Positions 2,539-47,041 of a stretch of 64,000 nucleotides of DNA are shown here, in pieces. The DNA is from Oscillospiraceae bacterium (GTDB lineage Bacteria > Bacillota > Clostridia > Oscillospirales > Oscillospiraceae). The stretch spans positions 1-64,000 of the forward strand of contig JAAWUC010000001.1 of assembly GCA_022804995.1 (NCBI GenBank), given 5' to 3'. Position 1 is the first letter of the stretch. Each line of letters starts with the position of its first letter. Made by a program: the position numbers and the translations under genes. A model generated the notes under the pieces. That model was given only the letters and a program-made list of their open reading frames with translations, did not search any database and was not told the DNA's origin.

Positions 2539-4581
2539 TCACACCCGGCGGATAATAATCCGGTCGTTGTCCCGGAGCTCCTGGGTAAAGGCGGCCTCGC
2601 CGTCGTTCACCAGCAGCTCCACCGGACCGTCCAGTGTCTCGAAGTCGATGCCGGACCGGTCCAGCAGGTCCATCAGATAGTAGGGGGATCCGTCCGCCTT
2701 TCCCGGCAGAATCAGCGCCGCGCCGTTAAGGTAAACCATCAGCCGCCGCCGGAGGGTCCGCTCCGGCTCCGGGGCGGGCACAGGTACCACTGGCTCCTCC
2801 GAGATAACCGGCGCGCTCTTCTCCCCCGGCTCCTCTACCGCCGGGAGTGCCGCAGGCTCTGCGGGCTCCGGCACGGCCTCCGGTTCCAGCGCGGACACCT
2901 GCTCCGGCTCCACCGCCGGTTCGGCCTCCAGCTCCATTTCCGGAATTGACTCTGCCTCCGGAGTAGGCGCCGGCGCGGTCTCCGGCTCCGGATCCAGGGG
3001 GTACTCGGTGGTCACCACATGGTCGCCGCTGCGCAGCTTCCGGTCCAGGGACGCGGCCCGGCCGTTGATGATCACACCGCCGGGGAAATCCGCACCCAGC
3101 AGCTCCCGGGGTGTCCGCTCCGCAGAGGGACCGGCCACAGCGGGGATGAACTCGATGCTGTCCCCGGCGTAGACCAGGGCGGAGGGCCGGGCGTCCTCCC
3201 CATTGAGCCGCAGGGTGCAGGGGGTGGCGCTCTGGCCCCGGAAGGTCATCCGCTTCCCGTCGATGGTAACGCTCAGGCTCTTCCCCGTCCGGCCCAGCAG
3301 GTCGGCAGAGGTATAGCCGTTCATCATCAGAATCTCCAGCAGGGTCAGAGTCCCGCTGCGGAAGAGCTTGGCGGGCTGGCCGTTGAGCATAATGCGGTAG
3401 CTGTCGCTGATAAGCCCCAGCCCGGCGGACACAGCGATGCCCAGAGGCGTGGCGTACTCCGGGTCGTTGAGCTCATACTCCGTGGAAAAGGCGCTCATGT
3501 CAAAGTTGTTCCCCGCCAGGGCCACCCGCTTCTCATCCATCTCCAGCGCCTGGGCCACCAGCTCCTTGAGCCCCAGCAGCTTGCTGCCGCCGCCGGCCAG
3601 GAACATGGCGGAGGGGGGTGCGCCGTTGATGCCCACTACCCGCTGAGCGATCTCCTGGGCCAGATTCTTGGCCGCGCCCTGGAGCACATCCCGCACCTGA
3701 TTCCCCGGCACGCTCTGCTCCAGACCCAGCACATCCCGGTAGGCGATGGTGGGAGCCTCCAGCTCCATCTTCATCCGCTCCGCCGTGGCGAAGGTCACCA
3801 GATAGGCCCGCATCAGCTCCTCGGTAATCTCGTCCCCGGCGGTGGTTGCCATGGTATACCCCACCACCGCGCCATCCCTGCATACGGCAATATCACTGGT
3901 GCCCGCGCCGATGTCCGCCAGCACCAGATTCAGCAGCCGCAGATCCGCCGGAATCACGGCGTTGAGGGCGGCGATAGGCTCCAGGGTCAGGCTGGCCACC
4001 TCCAGCCCCGCCGCCTCCATAACGGTGTACAGGCTCTCCACCACCTCACTGGGCAGGAAGGTCGCTACCACCTCCGCCTCCAGCTGCTGGCCGTTGTGGT
4101 CCTTCAGGGAGGTGAGGGGGTACCGGTCCAGCAGGTAGCTGGAGACAGTATAGCCCACCAGGTAGAACCGCCGCTGGCTGTCCTCCCCCCGGCTGAGCTG
4201 CTCCTCCGCGTCGCTGACCGCGCCGCTCTCCAGCTGGCTGATGAGGTCGCTGTCGATGCGGCTCACCTGGGGCAGGGTCATGGCGTAGCGGCCCTTCTCC
4301 GTCCGCAGGGCCCGGCCGGCGGCGGCTACGCACACCCGCCGGAGCCTGCACCCCAGCTTGGCCTCCACCTTCTCGGTGACGCGCCGGGCCACCCGGGCCA
4401 CCTGCTCGATGTCCTCGATCTGCCCGTCCAGCATGGCCCGCTTGCCGTGCTCCTCCTTCTCGATGGCCAGCACCTCCAAGCGGTCATTCGCCACCCGGCC
4501 CGCCACGCCGATGATGCTGCGGGTGCCGATGTCCAGCGCGAACACCAGCTCCGTATCCTGAACCTTCATTTCCTCCGGCAT
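2539..4581 (-). CDS. FtsA-like actin-fold ATPase with long Pro/Glu-rich linker and C-terminal domain
   Basis: FALDIGTRSIIGVAGR, LRRVCVAAAGRAL, ADIGAGTSDIAVCRDG, FLAGGGSKLLGL are FtsA/actin-family motifs; C-terminal PEPETAPAPTPEAE...-type region; GAGGT RBS before ATG 4581. Confidence 0.8.
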   Translation of the reverse strand: MPEEMKVQDTELVFALDIGTRSIIGVAGRVANDRLEVLAIEKEEHGKRAMLDGQIEDIEQVARVARRVTEKVEAKLGCRLRRVCVAAAGRALRTEKGRYAMTLPQVSRIDSDLISQLESGAVSDAEEQLSRGEDSQRRFYLVGYTVSSYLLDRYPLTSLKDHNGQQLEAEVVATFLPSEVVESLYTVMEAAGLEVASLTLEPIAALNAVIPADLRLLNLVLADIGAGTSDIAVCRDGAVVGYTMATTAGDEITEELMRAYLVTFATAERMKMELEAPTIAYRDVLGLEQSVPGNQVRDVLQGAAKNLAQEIAQRVVGINGAPPSAMFLAGGGSKLLGLKELVAQALEMDEKRVALAGNNFDMSAFSTEYELNDPEYATPLGIAVSAGLGLISDSYRIMLNGQPAKLFRSGTLTLLEILMMNGYTSADLLGRTGKSLSVTIDGKRMTFRGQSATPCTLRLNGEDARPSALVYAGDSIEFIPAVAGPSAERTPRELLGADFPGGVIINGRAASLDRKLRSGDHVVTTEYPLDPEPETAPAPTPEAESIPEMELEAEPAVEPEQVSALEPEAVPEPAEPAALPAVEEPGEKSAPVISEEPVVPVPAPEPERTLRRRLMVYLNGAALILPGKADGSPYYLMDLLDRSGIDFETLDGPVELLVNDGEAAFTQELRDNDRIIIRRV

Positions 4582-4757
4582 ACTTGTTACCTCAGCTTCC
4601 TGTGTTGGTGGACGGAACAGAGAGCCGCCGGGACGGCGCAGGCCGTCCCGGCGGTCCGGCATCAGGCCGTAGCCCGGCCCCGGCGTTCCGCCGGCTCAAG
4701 TAGAGACGGACATATGGCATCCCGGTCTCCCGAGACGCCATATGGCCGCTTCCGCCG

Positions 4758-6800: not shown

Positions 6801-7499
6801 CTAAACGATATCGCCGTACTTGCCGTTGCGCACATCCCCCACCAGCTTGCCATCCACCAGGGTCACAACCCGCCGGCGCATGATGTTCACATACTGGCTG
6901 GCGTGGGTAGCCATAACGATGGTGGTGCCCCGGCTGTTGAGCTCGTTGAGCAGGTGCATCAGATCCCAGATGTTGTCGTCGTCCAGGTTGGCCGTCAGCT
7001 CGTCGATGAGCAGAATCGGAGGGCTGCTCACCAGCGCCCGGGCCAGCTCCACCCGCCGGCACTCCCCGATGGAGAGCTCCGCCGGGTACCGGTCCTCCAC
7101 ATCCGGCAGGCCCACGATGCCCAGCGCCTTCTTGGCCGCCTGCTTTCCCCGGCGGCGCATCCCGGTGGCCCCTGCCGTCAGAAGCAGGTTGTCCCGGATG
7201 GTCCGCTTGCGGATCAGCAGGCACTGCTGGTCCACAATGCCAAAGGTTCGGGCCACCCGCACCCGCCAAGGCCCCATCAGACGGCCAATATTGGAGCCGT
7301 TGAGGTAGACCGCCCCGGCGTCCGGCGAGATCTCCCCGCCCATGAGCTTGAGCAGGGTGCTCTTACCCGCGCCGCTGCTGCCGATGAGGAAGACGAACTC
7401 CCCCTGCTCCACCGTCAGGCTCACATCCCGGACAGCGTACTGGGTGCGCTTATCCTGGGTATATCGTTTTGACACATTTTCAAGACGGATCTCTGGCAT
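6801..7499 (-). CDS. FtsE-like ABC transporter ATP-binding protein
   Basis: MPEIRLENVSKRY..., Walker A GSSGAGKST, Walker B ILLIDE, H-loop ATHAS; AAGGAG RBS. Signature is LSIGE rather than LSGGQ. Confidence 0.85.
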   Translation of the reverse strand: MPEIRLENVSKRYTQDKRTQYAVRDVSLTVEQGEFVFLIGSSGAGKSTLLKLMGGEISPDAGAVYLNGSNIGRLMGPWRVRVARTFGIVDQQCLLIRKRTIRDNLLLTAGATGMRRRGKQAAKKALGIVGLPDVEDRYPAELSIGECRRVELARALVSSPPILLIDELTANLDDDNIWDLMHLLNELNSRGTTIVMATHASQYVNIMRRRVVTLVDGKLVGDVRNGKYGDIV

Positions 7500-7636
7500 T
7501 CCGCTGCGGCTCCTTCCGGTTCCCTGGCCGGGAACCGCCATCAGATATCGAACACTTGCCCCGCAAAGCGTCCCTCCTCCGGCACGCCCCACGGACATCT
7601 GCCCCGCCGTATCCGCCGGCGGGACAGATCAGGACT

Positions 7637-8457: not shown

Positions 8458-11340
8458 TCAGCCGCCCATCAGGCCGGCCAGAGTAGAGCTCTGGGAGTTC
8501 ATCTGGTTGATGAGAACCTCCAGCTTGCTGAACATGCTGGTGTAGCGGTCCACCTGGCTCTCCAGCTTATCCTGCCATTTCTCAATCTCGTTGCTGATAT
8601 TGTCGATCTGCTTCTGCCACTCGTTATCCAGCAGAGACAGAGAGTTGAGGGGGGTACCGGCCTGCTGGACCAGAATACCCTTGGTGCTGCCGGTCAGTCC
8701 GGCGTAGCGGTCCAGCTGGGTCTTCAGGCCCTGCATAATGCCGTTGCTGGCGCCGCCGTCCTCGCTGCTCCGGGTGAAGAGATCTGCCACCTCGTCGGGA
8801 TCCTTCTCCAGCGCCGCCCGAAGCTTGCTCTCGTCGAGAGTGATGGTTGTGGAGTTGTCCACGGAGGAGAAGGAGGAGCTGATGCCGATCTTCGAGAGAA
8901 GGGCAGAGTCCATTCCGCTGGGCTCAAACACGTCCCGCATCCGCTCATAGAGGCTGCGCAGGTTGTTGTCGGCAAAGAGGATGCCCTGCTTAGCCTTCTC
9001 CTCATAGACCTTGATCTCGTTCTCGCTCATGCTGGCCCTCTGCTCCTCGGTGAGGGGCTCGTAATCCTTCAGCGTCCCGCTGGAGCTCTTGGCGGGCATT
9101 GTGGCGTAGGCCTTGCGGATCTCCGACATCATCTCGTTGTAGTCGGTGATCATATCCTTCACCGCGTCCACAATCTTGTCGGCGTCGGTGCTGGTCTGGA
9201 AGGTGACGTCCTCGTCAACGCCTCCGGCATAGTTCTCGTTGAAGGTCCCCTTGAAGTTGATGGTCAGACCGTCGATGTCCACGCTGTTGGAGCCCCTGGT
9301 GAGCTCCTTCTCCACACCGTCCACCGTGACCTTGAATTTGGCATCCTGGCCGGGAGTGTAGTCGATCCCGGGTCCGTACCCCTCCTGGAGTTCAAGGTCA
9401 ACGCGCCCGACCGTGTCGCTGTCCGCCCACATCTCAAAGTCGACTTTTGTGCCGTTTTTATTGGTTATTTCCAGCTGGCCCGTGTACTTATTGTAGGAGG
9501 CGGTGCCGCTGTTAAAGATAGTTGCGTTTAATTTGTCAACGACATCCTCAATTGTGGCGTCCTTCCCAACCGCAAAGGAGTAGTCCAAGCCGTCCTCGGA
9601 CAATTTGAAATGAACCTTTTGTCCGTCCAGCCAGGGCGCGCCATAGGCCTCGCCAAAGTTCTCTTTGCTGTGGTCGCTGGGCTCCGTCGATCCAAAGATG
9701 GCAGCGGCCAGGCCGCCCTTCTCAATTTCGATGCCGTTCTCGGAGCCGGTCTCCTTGCTGGTGAACACAAACTGGCGGGTGGTCCGGGAGAAGCTGACCT
9801 TCACACCGGCCTCGCTGTTGGAGTTGATGTCGTTCATGATGTCGGAGAGCCTGGCGTCCTCGCTATACCGGCCAATGAGCTCTCCATTGATCCGGAACTC
9901 ATAGAGGGGCTTGCCAGTTTTCTCATCCGTCATCGGGTGGCCAAGGCTGTCCGTCGCGATCTTCACATCCTTGAGCGCGCCATCCTTCAGCAGATCCTTC
10001 AGGCTGCTGCCGGTATTGAGGTAGTTGGTGGCGCTCCGGCCAATGCCCAGCGTCTCGCCTGTGCTGGTGTTGATGAGCAGGTTGGACCCGTCCTGGACGG
10101 AGAACTCCAGCTGGAGGCCGCCGTCCGTGGCCTTGTTCTCCACCTTGAGCTTGTCACCGAAAGCCTTTTTCACGCTGTCCTGGAGCATTGAGGTGTAGGT
10201 CCCGGCAATCTCGTCCACAGAATCCACCGTCTTGGTTTCGCCCTGCTTGGTGACGGTGTACTTGTCCTTATCCAGCTTGCTGGTGTCATAGACATAGTTA
10301 ATATTCCCGTACTTATCCTTCACGGTGGAGGGCATAGTAAGGGTATACTTCCCATCCTTCTCCTCAATCTTGGGCATCTGGATGGTCTTGGTGACGCCGT
10401 CCACATTGATGTTGAAGGATTTCCCGGACAGGTACTCGTAGGCCTTGAGCTCCTTGGTAAGCTTGGTGTTCTCCCCTATCTCGAAGCTGTCCACCCGCTT
10501 ATCCTCGTCCTCCAGGTCCCCCAGGTTCAGGGTGTCGCTGATGGAATCGCTGGCGGAGGCAATATAGACCTTGTTGCCGGCATTCCCCTTGTCGTAGAAG
10601 CTGATGGATTCCCCCTCCACCTTCACGCCGATGCGCTCGCTGGCGGACACGGACTCGCCGCTGGAGAGCGTAATCTTCTGATCGGACAGCTTCTCCTCGA
10701 TCATCGCGCCTATCCGTCTGGCTTTCTCCTCCTGGGTGAGGGGCTTGCCCGTTTCATCCGTATCCGGAATCCGGTCGCTCACCTCGTCGAAGCTGATGCT
10801 CACGTTCTTGCTGCCGTAGTTGAAGCTCATGGAGCCGCTGAGGGTGCCCAGCTCCACCGTCTGGTCAAACTTCATGCTGCCCTCGGCTGTGACCGCGTTG
10901 CCGCCGTCTCCCTTCAGGCCGGCATCCCCTGTCTTGACGGTGTACCGGGCGGCGGTGGCCAGCTGGCTGACGCCGTTGAGCACCACATCGCTGTCGGTGC
11001 GGCCGCTGGCCGTCACCTTCTCCCCGTTCTTCCCCTGTGCCGCCACCTTGACAGCGCTGCGGAAAAACGCGGAGCTCATCAGGTTGGTGGAAGAGGTATA
11101 GGACGCGTACTTGCTGGAAAAAGCCGTCATCTTCGCGATGATGCTGCGATAGGACTCCTGCTTCCACTGGATCTTGGTGGCCTTGTTGTTCAGGCCAAGA
11201 ATCTTGTTCTGATAGCTCTGAACCAGGCTTTCAATCATTCCCTCGGTATCCATGCCGCTGGCCAGACCGCTGATAATATTGGCGCTGTTGTACAGGCCGC
11301 TGACACCGCTGCTGCCGCGGACGCCGCCGATAGATGCCAT
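8458..11340 (-). CDS. fliD: Flagellar filament capping protein FliD, unusually long (960 aa)
   Basis: N-terminus NIISGLASGMDTEGMIESLVQSYQNKI and C-terminus FSKLEVLINQMNSQSSTLAGLM are FliD-like; adjacent to fliS. Confidence 0.93.
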   Translation of the reverse strand: MASIGGVRGSSGVSGLYNSANIISGLASGMDTEGMIESLVQSYQNKILGLNNKATKIQWKQESYRSIIAKMTAFSSKYASYTSSTNLMSSAFFRSAVKVAAQGKNGEKVTASGRTDSDVVLNGVSQLATAARYTVKTGDAGLKGDGGNAVTAEGSMKFDQTVELGTLSGSMSFNYGSKNVSISFDEVSDRIPDTDETGKPLTQEEKARRIGAMIEEKLSDQKITLSSGESVSASERIGVKVEGESISFYDKGNAGNKVYIASASDSISDTLNLGDLEDEDKRVDSFEIGENTKLTKELKAYEYLSGKSFNINVDGVTKTIQMPKIEEKDGKYTLTMPSTVKDKYGNINYVYDTSKLDKDKYTVTKQGETKTVDSVDEIAGTYTSMLQDSVKKAFGDKLKVENKATDGGLQLEFSVQDGSNLLINTSTGETLGIGRSATNYLNTGSSLKDLLKDGALKDVKIATDSLGHPMTDEKTGKPLYEFRINGELIGRYSEDARLSDIMNDINSNSEAGVKVSFSRTTRQFVFTSKETGSENGIEIEKGGLAAAIFGSTEPSDHSKENFGEAYGAPWLDGQKVHFKLSEDGLDYSFAVGKDATIEDVVDKLNATIFNSGTASYNKYTGQLEITNKNGTKVDFEMWADSDTVGRVDLELQEGYGPGIDYTPGQDAKFKVTVDGVEKELTRGSNSVDIDGLTINFKGTFNENYAGGVDEDVTFQTSTDADKIVDAVKDMITDYNEMMSEIRKAYATMPAKSSSGTLKDYEPLTEEQRASMSENEIKVYEEKAKQGILFADNNLRSLYERMRDVFEPSGMDSALLSKIGISSSFSSVDNSTTITLDESKLRAALEKDPDEVADLFTRSSEDGGASNGIMQGLKTQLDRYAGLTGSTKGILVQQAGTPLNSLSLLDNEWQKQIDNISNEIEKWQDKLESQVDRYTSMFSKLEVLINQMNSQSSTLAGLMGG

Positions 11341-11429
11341 GTCAATCTCTCCTTTATATCAAAATGTGGGTGGGGATAAATTACTTTTTGAAAATTTCCA
11401 GAAAAAAAGGAATCTCACTCTGTACTTTT

Positions 11430-11456
11430 TTATCGTCACGTAGTATAGTAAAGTTA
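11430..11456 (-). promoter_or_regulatory. Sigma-28-type promoter for fliD
   Basis: Minus strand TAAC-N15-GACGATAA, one mismatch in each element versus TAAA-N15-GCCGATAA. Confidence 0.65.
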
Positions 11457-11494
11457 AGAGTTCACAAAAAGATTTTACAAGCGGAGGGGATATT

Positions 11495-12265
11495 TTGTCT
11501 GCTGTCATTGCCATTACCAATCAAAAGGGCGGCGTCGGGAAGACGACTACATCCTGCGCCCTGCTGGCCGGCCTGCGCCAGATGGGAAGCCGGGTCCTGG
11601 GCGTGGATCTGGACCCCCAGGGGAGCCTGGGCTTCTGCCTGGGTCTGGACATCGACAACTGCGCCACGGTCTACGACGTGATGAAGGGCGCGAAGTCCAT
11701 CAAGGAGGTCATTCTGCCCTCGGAGTGCGGGGATATCCTGCCCTCCAACATCCTGCTGTCCGGCGCGGAGCTGGAGTTCAACCGCCCGGGCCGGGAGTTC
11801 CTGCTCAAGAGCGCCCTGGAGGAGGTCCGGGACGACTACGACTATATCATCGTGGACACGCCGCCGGCGCTGAATGTGCTGACGGTGAACGCCTACGTGG
11901 TGGCCGACGGGCTGGTGATCCCCATGGCCCCGGAGATTCTCAGCCTGCTGGGCGTCTCCCAGATTCGGGAAACCATCGACACCGTGCGCCGCTGCTACAA
12001 CTCCCGGCTGAAGGTGCTGGGCATCCTTCTCAACAAGTACAACCAGCGCTTCACCCTCAACCGGGAGGTGCTGGACATGGCCGGGCAGATTGCCGCCCAG
12101 CTGGACACCAAGGTCTTTGAGGCCAAGGTCCGCACCAGCGTCTCCGTGGCGGAGGCCCCCGCCCACGGGGAGAGCGTTCTCACCTACGCCCCCTCCTCCA
12201 AGCCGGCGGAGGACTTCCGCACCCTTATCGGCGAGATTATCCGGGAGTTCGGGCCCTCCTTTTAG
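11495..12265 (+). CDS. ParA/Soj-family ATPase
   Basis: TTG start after GGAGGGG; deviant Walker A KGGVGKTTT, switch DLDPQGSLG, DYIIVDTPPAL. Confidence 0.95.
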   Translation: MSAVIAITNQKGGVGKTTTSCALLAGLRQMGSRVLGVDLDPQGSLGFCLGLDIDNCATVYDVMKGAKSIKEVILPSECGDILPSNILLSGAELEFNRPGREFLLKSALEEVRDDYDYIIVDTPPALNVLTVNAYVVADGLVIPMAPEILSLLGVSQIRETIDTVRRCYNSRLKVLGILLNKYNQRFTLNREVLDMAGQIAAQLDTKVFEAKVRTSVSVAEAPAHGESVLTYAPSSKPAEDFRTLIGEIIREFGPSF

Positions 12266-12314
12266 TCTGCCCGGCGCATCCCCAGACCATTACTGCTAAG
12301 GAGAGAACACGACC

Positions 12315-13094
12315 ATGGCAACAGCGAAGAAAGGCTCGAAAAGCAACAAGACGGCCCACGTCCTCAATCTGTTGGCCCCCAACGGCGAGAAGGAGCGGGA
12401 GAGCGCCGAGGTCCGGCCGGAGCCGGCCGGGGACGGCGAGGCCCCCGCGGAGGATACGGCGGCGGAGGCCGCGCCCGCGCCGGCCCACCGCCCGCTGACA
12501 CCCCCTATTCTGGAGGTGGCCCGAGCCAATGACGAGCAGATATCCCTGCAAATCAAGGACGCCCTGGAGAGCGCCCTGGAGGCCGAGGCGGAGGAGTCCG
12601 CTCCGGTACCGGAGCCCCAGCCGGAGCCAGAACCCGCTCCGCCGGAACCCCGGCCCGTGATTCTGGAGGAGGAGCCCCAGCCCGCGCCTATGCCGGAGCC
12701 CATCCCCCAGCCGGAACCGGAGCCCGAGCCCGAGCCCGCGCCTGTACCGGCCCCAGAGCCGGAACCCGCGCCCCAGCCCGCGCCCGTTTCCGCTTCCGCG
12801 CCTCAGCCGAACCCGGACGATCTGGTGGTGGTCAACATTATGGAGGCTCTGGTGGAGGAGAAATCCCCCCGGTATATTAGTATGTTCGGACTGTGCTCCT
12901 GTGAACGGTGCGCCGCCGATGTGCGGGCGCTGACGCTGACCAATCTCCAGCCGGCCTATGTGGTGGTCCCCCGGAGGGAGGTCCACGCCATGCTCACCAT
13001 CTACGAGAGCCGCTTCAACAGCACCATCTTCGCCCAGCTGACCCGCTCCTGCAAGGTGGTCATGGACAGCCCCCGCCACAATCAAAAGAAATAG
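12315..13094 (+). CDS. ComFB-family protein with basic N-terminus and Pro/Glu/Ala-rich linker
   Basis: C-terminal [12 protein letters not shown]...[27 protein letters not shown] is the ComFB signature; N-terminus [22 protein letters not shown]. Confidence 0.85.
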
Positions 13095-13102
13095 ATCATG
13101 GA

Positions 13103-13139
13103 AAACGGACCGGCCGCGTAAAACGCGGCCGGTCCGTTT
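13103..13139. terminator. Bidirectional terminator between comFB-like gene and EAL/HDOD gene
   Basis: AAACGGACCGGCCGCG-taaaa-CGCGGCCGGTCCGTTT with T runs on both sides. Confidence 0.85.
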
Positions 13140-13162: not shown

Positions 13163-14458
13163 TCAGCCCTCCGGCCGTTCCTCCCCGGCGTCCTCCGCCG
13201 GCGGGAGGCCGCTGCTGCTGTCCATCAGCTGGCGCCAGATGGTGCTGACCTCCTCCAGACACCGGAAATAGGTGTCCGTCAGGCGGTCCAGAGGGATGCC
13301 CAGCTCTCCCGCCAGAGAGTCAATCGCATTCCAGTCCGCCTGCTCGTAGCTGAGGACCAGATCGTAAAGCAGCCCGCACCGGCCCTCGTGGCGGAGCAGG
13401 GCGTTTTTGACCTCCTGGGAGATGGGGATCTCCTCCAAAATCTCCTCCAGGGGCGCGGCGATGAGGAAATTGAGGGTGGAGAACATGCCCAGCAGATAGG
13501 CGTCGTTGCGCTGGATGGGCATATTTTTGGCGTACTTCATCAGCTCGCCGCAGAAGGTGGCCCGCATGAAGGAGGTCTTGAGGAACACCTCCTGGCTGGC
13601 ATCCATCTCCCCCTCGTTGCCGGAGCCCATGAGGTAGATCCACTGCCGCAGCTGCCCAATCCCCAGGACCATGATGGCCTGGTGGACGTCGGTGGCCCGG
13701 TTGCGCAGGGCGAAGTAGGCGGAGTTGACAATCTTCAGCAGGCTGTAGGTCAGGGTGGCGTCCATGGCGATGATCTGCTCGATCTCCTCCACATCCGGCT
13801 CGTCCTTGGTAATCGCCATCATCAGGCGGAAGAAGTTGCTCTGGAGGTAGCTGCTGGAGTGGACCGTGGTGAACATCTGCTCCGCCACATACTTCCCCTC
13901 CATGGCGTCCACCCCCATGATGAACGCCTTCTGGTAGAGAATTTCGTCGTCTACCCCCACTGCGATGCACTGCTTGCCCGTACTGTGGGCCATCTCCACA
14001 ATGTTGCGGATGCTGCTGTCGTTGGTGGTGGCGAAGTTGATTTTGATATAGTCGAACTTGTCGAGAATGGAGATATAGCGGGGGGAGAACTGGAACTCAT
14101 TGGCCGCTACCTTGTACCCATTCTGGGAGTACCGCTCCACGAAGCGCATGGCCAGGGGGTGGATAATGACGCTGTCGTCCACCTGGATGACCAGATCGCT
14201 GGGGTTGAAGAGCTTAGGCGCCTGCTTCATGAGCAGGTTGGTGGTAAAGGTCATGAAGTTCAGCGCCCCCTTCAGGGAGCGGTCCGTGTTCTGAGTGAGA
14301 AAATTGTAGATGGTGTCCGCGGCGGCGAAATCCTGGCCGCCGCCCTCGTCGCCGTAGGCGTTGTTCTCGCCGTGGTAGCGGATCTCATAGCCGATAGCCC
14401 GACCCTGCAAATCCTTGATGGGCTGCCGGACAATATACTTGCTGCGATTGCCTGCCAT
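13163..14458 (-). CDS. EAL-HDOD protein with apparently degenerate EAL domain
   Basis: RQPIKDLQGRAIGYEIRYHG..., KVAANEFQFSPRY...DYIKINF (EAL fold) then HDOD region (IIAMDATLTYSLLKIVNSAYF...). Confidence 0.88.
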   Translation of the reverse strand: MAGNRSKYIVRQPIKDLQGRAIGYEIRYHGENNAYGDEGGGQDFAAADTIYNFLTQNTDRSLKGALNFMTFTTNLLMKQAPKLFNPSDLVIQVDDSVIIHPLAMRFVERYSQNGYKVAANEFQFSPRYISILDKFDYIKINFATTNDSSIRNIVEMAHSTGKQCIAVGVDDEILYQKAFIMGVDAMEGKYVAEQMFTTVHSSSYLQSNFFRLMMAITKDEPDVEEIEQIIAMDATLTYSLLKIVNSAYFALRNRATDVHQAIMVLGIGQLRQWIYLMGSGNEGEMDASQEVFLKTSFMRATFCGELMKYAKNMPIQRNDAYLLGMFSTLNFLIAAPLEEILEEIPISQEVKNALLRHEGRCGLLYDLVLSYEQADWNAIDSLAGELGIPLDRLTDTYFRCLEEVSTIWRQLMDSSSGLPPAEDAGEERPEG

Positions 14459-46336: not shown

Positions 46337-46393
46337 AGAGCAAGAGAACTCACACCCCTTCCGGGGACGACAGATATGATGGAGGATTTTGGG

Positions 46394-47041
46394 ATGGCTA
46401 TTTTGGAAAACTGTATGAAAGCGGAGATATTTGATATTGTGGACAACACCCTGCTGTGCACATCCTACGTGTCCCAGGGGCCCATGGAGAGCATTCTGCT
46501 GGAGGTCCCCCGGACCATCGACTGGAAGGAGCACGCCATCTGCCGGGTGGTCTTCTACGACCCCACGCTGGGGCGGCTGACCTGCCGGTGCAGCCTCTCC
46601 TCCCCTCTTATTCTGCCCGATCAGATGCTGTCCATCCGCTGTGAGATTGTCGAGAAGCTCAGCCAGGAGCAGCGGCGCAACGACGTGAAGGTGCCGGTGG
46701 GCGTCCGGGTCCTGCTGCGCATCCCCCACCGGCCCGGGGACGCCCCCGTCCCGCCGGAGGGCTGGCCGGCCACCGTTATTAACATCAGCGCCGGCGGCGT
46801 GTGCCTACGCACGGACTTCGCGCTGGAGGAGGGGCGCACCTGCTCCTTTGTTTTCCCCGAGGCCGGCGGCGACATCCCCCTGACGGCCAAGGTCCTCTGG
46901 AGCGCCGACGCCTCCACCCGGCCCTACCAGACGCTTTACGCCTACGGCTGTCAGTTTGTGGGACTGCCCTCCCGCTATGAGTCCCAGCTCCGGGGCTTCG
47001 TGTTCCGGGAGGAGCGGCGGCTGCGCAACAAGAAGGATTAA
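46394..47041 (+). CDS. PilZ-domain (YcgR-like) protein
   Basis: YcgR-like N-domain, then QRRNDVKVPV...VINISAGGVCLRTD; GGAGG 8 nt before ATG 46394. Confidence 0.85.
   Translation: MAILENCMKAEIFDIVDNTLLCTSYVSQGPMESILLEVPRTIDWKEHAICRVVFYDPTLGRLTCRCSLSSPLILPDQMLSIRCEIVEKLSQEQRRNDVKVPVGVRVLLRIPHRPGDAPVPPEGWPATVINISAGGVCLRTDFALEEGRTCSFVFPEAGGDIPLTAKVLWSADASTRPYQTLYAYGCQFVGLPSRYESQLRGFVFREERRLRNKKD

Follow-up and report, generated by a model that had tools for sequence, protein, structure and literature searches.

The ParA-ComFB unit and its surroundings

In the 64-kb stretch of Oscillospiraceae DNA analyzed here, which is referred to as the window, a gene for a ParA/MinD-family ATPase is followed on the same plus strand by a gene for a long ComFB-like protein, and both are located in a flagellar cluster that spans fliS/fliD to flgN. 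The preliminary description of this DNA, according to which a ParA/Soj-like ATPase precedes a ComFB protein by 49 bp in a flagellar locus, was confirmed by the Pfam matches (AAA_31 and PF10719) and by the exact spacing of 49 bp. The unit and its immediate neighbors are as follows:

8458-11340, minus strand: fliD, which diverges from parA and adjoins the pair in most loci of the window type
11421-11459, both strands: conserved regulatory block upstream of parA, with a long invariant core in nine aligned fliD-parA intergenic regions
11495-12265, plus strand: parA (TTG start, 256 aa, AAA_31 E = 1.5e-51), ParA/MinD-family ATPase of flagellar class 1
12315-13094, plus strand: comFB-like partner gene (ATG start, 259 aa, PF10719 E = 1.2e-12; AF2 and Foldseek)
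13104-13138, no strand assigned: strong hairpin (-38.8 kcal/mol, z = -7.95) between comFB and the converging EAL-HDOD gene
13163-14458, minus strand: EAL-HDOD gene, which converges on comFB and adjoins the pair in most loci of the window type

Beyond the EAL-HDOD gene, the cluster includes cheV, cheD, cheC, flgF/G, fliA, and flhA, the last two being adjacent. As described before, parB, flhF, and flhG are absent from the 64-kb window, and for FlhF the absence is a genome-wide and not just a local pattern, the best score in the whole genome of the organism being 76.5 bits (cutoff, 174 bits) for a match of the FtsY/Ffh type. A separate Soj is encoded on another contig (locus L064) beside a ParB-like gene, called by eye, with a GLGKGLGALLG N terminus, and the second ComFB of the genome is short and located near valS.

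The EAL part of the EAL-HDOD protein (13163-14458, minus strand) is degenerate; its match to the EAL profile is confined to the C-terminal portion, so that phosphodiesterase activity is improbable. A 707-aa PilM/FtsA-like actin-fold ATPase (2539-4662, minus strand) and an FtsE-like ABC ATPase close to an MCP gene (6801-7598, minus strand), neither of which is a standard flagellar protein, are encoded beside fliS/fliD in most of the pair loci of the window type. A PilZ protein gene (46376-47038, plus strand) is located at the distal end of the flagellar cluster.

The block between fliD and parA comprises 39 bp and is retained in nine relatives. On its plus strand, TGTACT-N17-TATAGT can be read as a sigma-A-like promoter directed toward parA-comFB, although a simple sigma-70 scan did not flag the block. 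The overlapping TAAC-N15-GACGATAA on the minus strand resembles a sigma-D/28-like promoter directed toward fliD; since the pattern TAAA-N13-17-CCGAT for sigma-D matches the window only once, which is about chance level, the sigma-D assignment is only a suggestion. Downstream, the hairpin at 13104-13138 is probably the terminator that closes the parA-comFB unit.

Conservation of the pair and its link to flagella

A profile search for the ParA in 151 genomes of the family returned 15 matches at 440 to 491 bits, followed by a drop to 233 bits and below, and a long ComFB gene was located directly downstream of all 15, in flagellar loci. Five more genomes of the family harbor a diverged pair (class 2) with a ParA of about 35% identity and a shorter ComFB, adjoining flgK, fliW, or other flagellar genes, and three further pairs were found in other families of the same order and class. 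A scan of named genomes yielded 57 loci with a ParA more similar to that of the window than to Soj, three of which (L120, L126, and L132) duplicate genomes of the 151-genome set. In each of the 53 loci with enough contig, ComFB follows directly on the same strand (52 calls by profile and L160 by reading). The pairing is far beyond chance, and a chance association was rejected on these counts of 15/15 and 53/53, which do not represent independent events because the pair-bearing species are related. The neighborhood analysis proposed in the preliminary description therefore found the pairing to be conserved.

The pair occurs in Oscillospiraceae, Butyricicoccaceae, Lachnospiraceae, and Erysipelotrichaceae, with hosts including Flavonifractor, Pseudoflavonifractor, Oscillibacter, Intestinimonas, Agathobaculum desmolans, Lacrimispora xylanisolvens, Mediterraneibacter glycyrrhizinilyticus, Eisenbergiella tayi, Enterocloster, and MAGs of Erysipelotrichaceae. 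In many loci the two genes overlap by 1 to 29 nt, while long ParA-ComFB gaps in L039, L122, and L163 may reflect start calls or insertions. The pair stays together across different contexts, i.e., divergent from fliD, within an operon, linked to cheC, linked to PilZ-GGDEF, or linked to MreB. No ParB was found beside the pair; wherever the contig was long enough, the partner gene encoded ComFB.

FlhA was present in all 20 pair genomes of the family versus 13 of the 131 genomes without the pair, and in all 14 other pair genomes tested, including those with the PilZ-GGDEF-ParA-ComFB context. FlhF scored above the cutoff in none of the 39 pair genomes tested (20 from the family and 19 others) and in six genomes of the family, all of them without the pair. 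Of the 33 family genomes with FlhA, FlhF was hence detected in 0/20 with the pair versus 6/13 without it (Fisher p = 0.0015, for related species and thus for events that are not independent). The pair resembles FlhF-FlhG in that a ParA/MinD-type ATPase is encoded in a flagellar locus, and the proposed output is the same, but it has no SRP-type GTPase, and in the pair loci where this region was visible, fliA comes directly after flhA, without an intervening flhF. Its ParA begins with MSAVIAITNQ instead of the DQAxxLR start of FlhG, which in the form DQAQ(N/G)LR was also present in two flhF-bearing loci that were read. It has no obvious C-terminal membrane-targeting extension either, and the two systems did not co-occur in the genomes tested.

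Seven FlhA genomes of the family have neither the pair nor FlhF above the cutoff; in one of them (G032), a diverged FlhF scores below the cutoff, and two (G050 and G106) are too fragmentary to tell. In three of the other four, a PilZ/YcgR-like gene, recognized by eye and listed without strand, lies between flhA and fliA:

L105:4396-5079: PilZ/YcgR-like gene
L107:6175-6873: PilZ/YcgR-like gene
L110:7097-7798: PilZ/YcgR-like gene

ComFB of any length, long or short, tracks FlhA in the 151 genomes of the family (28 of the 30 ComFB genomes have FlhA, and 28 of the 33 FlhA genomes have ComFB), so that the short ComFB may have a motility role as well.

ParA-like ATPases with a dedicated partner are known from chemoreceptor arrays, namely, PpfA-TlpT and ParC-ParP. 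ParA-ComFB shares with them the combination of such an ATPase and partner in a motility or chemotaxis locus (PMC10241942), but its partner is ComFB instead of a receptor or a CheW-related protein. A role of the pair in positioning or partitioning arrays rather than flagella would fit its frequent proximity to cheV, its location directly before cheC-cheD in three loci (L142, L152, and L176), and the occurrence of CheW-domain proteins in 29/32 pair genomes. However, two Erysipelotrichaceae genomes with FlhA and a class-2 pair (G507 and G513, MAGs of one lineage) contain no CheW, CheA, or CheV and no MCP domain, so that a receptor array cannot be a required cargo there. A third candidate for a chemotaxis-free pair genome (G510) was rejected, as it is CheW negative but has eight MCPs and is probably incomplete. 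We therefore regard arrays as an unlikely cargo. Of the earlier proposal of a positioner of flagella or chemoreceptor arrays, the link to flagella has been supported, every pair genome tested having FlhA, whereas the array option has been weakened by the two MAGs.

ParA and its ComFB partner

The ParA of the pair carries the deviant Walker A motif (KGGVGKTT) and the D(L/M)DPQG motif of the ParA/MinD family, both conserved in 15 aligned sequences. In a tree of 79 rows, each of five groups (class-1, class-2, and PilZ-context ParAs, Soj proteins, and FlhG proteins) is set apart from all others by a single branch, with moderate support for class 1 (79) and Soj (77), and the ParA of the pair is, as judged from its sequence, neither Soj nor FlhG. 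For a residue comparison of 52 class-1 ParAs and 11 Soj proteins, M. xanthus ParA, in which R238E abolishes DNA binding, was used as the reference (PMC12462528). This DNA-binding arginine is present in 11/11 Soj proteins and in none of the 52 class-1 ParAs, which speaks against a simple nucleoid-riding ParA; the nucleoid may thus not be the track of the class-1 protein. R235 is lost in 46/52 and R185 is retained in 51/52 of the class-1 ParAs, and an Arg/His at residue 213 of the window ParA is a novelty that has become fixed in both class 1 and class 2, unlike in the PilZ-context group. In the peptide pocket of the class-1 ParAs, the positions of L150, L152, and L155 have remained hydrophobic, whereas L192 is mostly replaced by Tyr/Phe and L187, which varies in Soj too, mostly by Thr/Ser. 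The simplest reading would be that the same peptide-docking site has been retained with altered specificity and that the DNA surface has been remodeled or abandoned.

A captured plasmid or chromosome partition system that segregates DNA could be expected from the family membership of the ParA, chromosomal ParA/Soj being among the solved structures nearest to it in sequence. This reading is hardly credible and was rejected, given the separate Soj and ParB-like genes of the same genome (L064), the lack of a ParB at the pair, the loss of R238 in all class-1 ParAs compared, and the tracking of flagella by the pair.

The partner consists of a basic helical N-terminal peptide, a helix, an acidic linker, and a C-terminal ComFB domain, an architecture that sequence and AF2 model bear out as it was first described (short basic peptide, Pro/Glu/Ala linker, and ComFB). 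Its parts are as follows:

12315-12374, plus strand: basic peptide, residues 1-20 (helix 12-20 in AF2), proposed motif for ParA binding and ATPase stimulation
12504-12596, plus strand: second conserved helix, residues 64-94 (alignment; AF2 core pLDDT about 87-93)
12597-12821, plus strand: acidic Pro/Glu/Ala linker, residues 95-169 (sequence; mostly without AF2 secondary structure)
12831-13073, plus strand: ComFB domain, residues 173-253 (PF10719, 48.1 bits; gathering cutoff, 25)

The fold of the ComFB domain was predicted with a pLDDT of about 97 for the window protein, and its best Foldseek matches were B. subtilis ComFB (4wai, 4.3e-05) and Synechocystis CdgR with c-di-GMP (8hja, 5.1e-04). 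In B. subtilis ComFB, zinc is bound by C25/C27/C30 and a fourth Cys or His, and N4, D33, and Y46 contribute to the dimer interface (PMC4381287). The corresponding positions, whose roles were taken from that protein and matched by hand, are invariant in 15 aligned partners (zinc site Cys194, 196, 199, and His255; dimer interface Asn174, Asp202, and Tyr215). The partners thus share with the ComFB/CdgR receptors the fold, the three zinc Cys positions, and the dimer-interface residues (PMC4381287) but differ from them by a ParA-type N-terminal peptide, a long linker (median net charge of the linkers, -16.5), and Cys246 in class 1. This additional cysteine in the last helix (13050-13052) is invariant in class-1 partners and absent from class 2 and from the short ComFB proteins that were read.

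Conservation of the KTAHVLNLL peptide, another check proposed at the outset, extends to all 65 class-1 and PilZ-context partners, which have the pattern [KR]T..[VI][LM].[LVM][LIV] (60 strict matches, 4 with Val at the next-to-last position, and L170 once its TTG start is used). The motif begins within the first 16 residues in all but two of them, the strict pattern did not occur beyond residue 70 of these partners, and shuffling of the first 70 residues gave 0.02 matches on average. The 15 partners that were aligned first all have K12, T13, V16, and L20. Class-2 partners, which represent one clade, carry DKExMYxKIMP or close variants instead, and the stand-alone ComFB proteins that were read (about 87-130 aa) are devoid of an N-terminal peptide extension.

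It is conceivable that the pairing reflects inherited operon structure only, with the two proteins serving motility independently of each other. The relatedness of the pair-bearing species would be compatible with this. In a fused ParA-ComFB AF2 model that stood in for a complex (L157 read through the stop codon; one ParA chain, 8 sequences), the peptide had a pLDDT of about 30 and did not dock, and the model was not counted as evidence; a mixed alignment of ParA-only and ComFB-only rows was left out, because the peptides had aligned to the P-loop. Nevertheless, ParA and ComFB stay joined while their surroundings vary, many of the gene pairs overlap, and no ComFB without a linked ParA was seen to carry the peptide, all of which makes a purely inherited arrangement very unlikely.

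A putative flagellar ParA-partner module and its signal input

The existence of a ParA-ComFB module and its flagellar link are well supported by the genome comparisons. Whether it represents a dedicated flagellar ParA-partner system, with a partner resembling c-di-nucleotide receptors, that places or counts flagella is in our judgment evenly balanced. From these data we infer the following mechanism, in which ParA would act as an ATP-driven dimer switch, and the partner, in the manner of ParB, would dimerize via its C-terminal ComFB domain and hold out two flexible acidic tethers. The basic helical KTxHVLNLL peptides would sit at the interface of the ParA dimer and activate its ATPase, while the ComFB domain would tether the partner to a flagellar component or read a c-di-nucleotide, the level of which would alter ParA cycling. 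Binding of the two proteins, ATPase stimulation, ligand binding and control, and the identity of the cargo are thus predictions, and the putative output would be the placement or number of flagella in place of the missing FlhF-FlhG.

Precedents for such a partner exist. In M. xanthus, the N-terminal peptide of ParB, with hydrophobic residues and one Arg/Lys, drives the ParA ATPase at the dimer interface (PMC12462528), and positively charged, disordered N termini are common to ParA/MinD partners in general (PMC10241942). Like ParA(Soj)-ParB(Spo0J), the pair combines a deviant Walker A ATPase, hydrophobic at L150, L152, and L155, with a partner made of a basic/hydrophobic N-terminal helical peptide, a flexible tether, and a dimeric body. 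In contrast, this body is ComFB and not ParB, and the ParA, from a separate clade, lacks R238 and mostly R235, has the new Arg/His 213, and is changed at L192 and L187. McdA-McdB and other ParA/MinD cargo systems likewise comprise a dedicated ATPase and a partner with a disordered, positively charged N terminus (PMC10241942), but they have no partner domain in common with the pair, and their cargo is different.

The pair could also be a regulatory switch of flagellar expression or assembly with no spatial role, i.e., an anti-activator like FleN/FlhG or a c-di-GMP-dependent shutdown. Cyanobacterial CdgR acts via the transcription factor DevH (PMC13075795), loss of ComFB alters pilus gene products (PMC12313861), and both the missing DNA-binding arginine of Soj/ParA and the conserved intergenic block common to parA and fliD would agree with such a switch. 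The basic N-terminal peptide, disordered tether, and dimeric body are, however, the layout of a spatial ParA partner, and no transcription factor was consistently found beside the pair, so that we consider a purely regulatory function rather improbable.

To our knowledge, there is no explanation of how flagella are placed or counted in flagellated Firmicutes that lack FlhF/FlhG. The ParA-ComFB pair is a specific candidate for this role across abundant gut Clostridia, and our analysis points to a possible, hitherto undescribed mode of placing or counting flagella in response to a signal. In a literature search for ComFB together with flagella or ParA, with subscription papers and preprints outside its scope, no paper on the pair was found. 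For the ComFB family, the pair provides a testable role outside competence.

A bolder and more tentative proposal, to which we give slightly less credence than doubt, is that the second-messenger receptor itself is the ParA partner. Binding of c-di-GMP or c-di-AMP to the ComFB body would modulate the peptide drive of the ParA cycle and thereby set the site or number of flagella in Clostridia without FlhF-FlhG. If true, this would be a ParA system with a c-di-nucleotide receptor as its partner, joining second-messenger signaling directly to spatial organization. The earlier statement that ComFB proteins bind cyclic dinucleotides was upheld for cyanobacteria, in which they are established c-di-nucleotide receptors (PMC12313861; PDB 8hja), e.g., Synechocystis ComFB, which binds c-di-AMP (2.6 uM) and c-di-GMP (PMC12313861), and the c-di-GMP receptor CdgR of Anabaena (PMC13075795).

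For the partners of the pair, the case for c-di-nucleotide binding is circumstantial and consists of the fold match to CdgR and of PilZ and GGDEF neighbors. In 12 divergent loci, a PilZ gene adjoins the pair or lies close to it, upstream in L155, L160, L162, L163, L170, L172, L142, L152, and L176 (just under the Pfam cutoff in L142 and L152), just downstream in L173 and L058, and about 3 kb away in L052. A GGDEF protein accompanies the upstream PilZ in four of these loci (L155, L160, L162, and L163), and the genome of the window has two GGDEF genes above the cutoff in addition to the PilZ gene at 46376-47038. An operon-like run of PilZ, GGDEF, ParA, ComFB, and MreB genes is seen at L155:6150-11351 and L160:3538-9179, both in genomes with FlhA, and at L142:6833-8269 a FapA gene immediately precedes the PilZ-like gene, as the second gene upstream from the pair.
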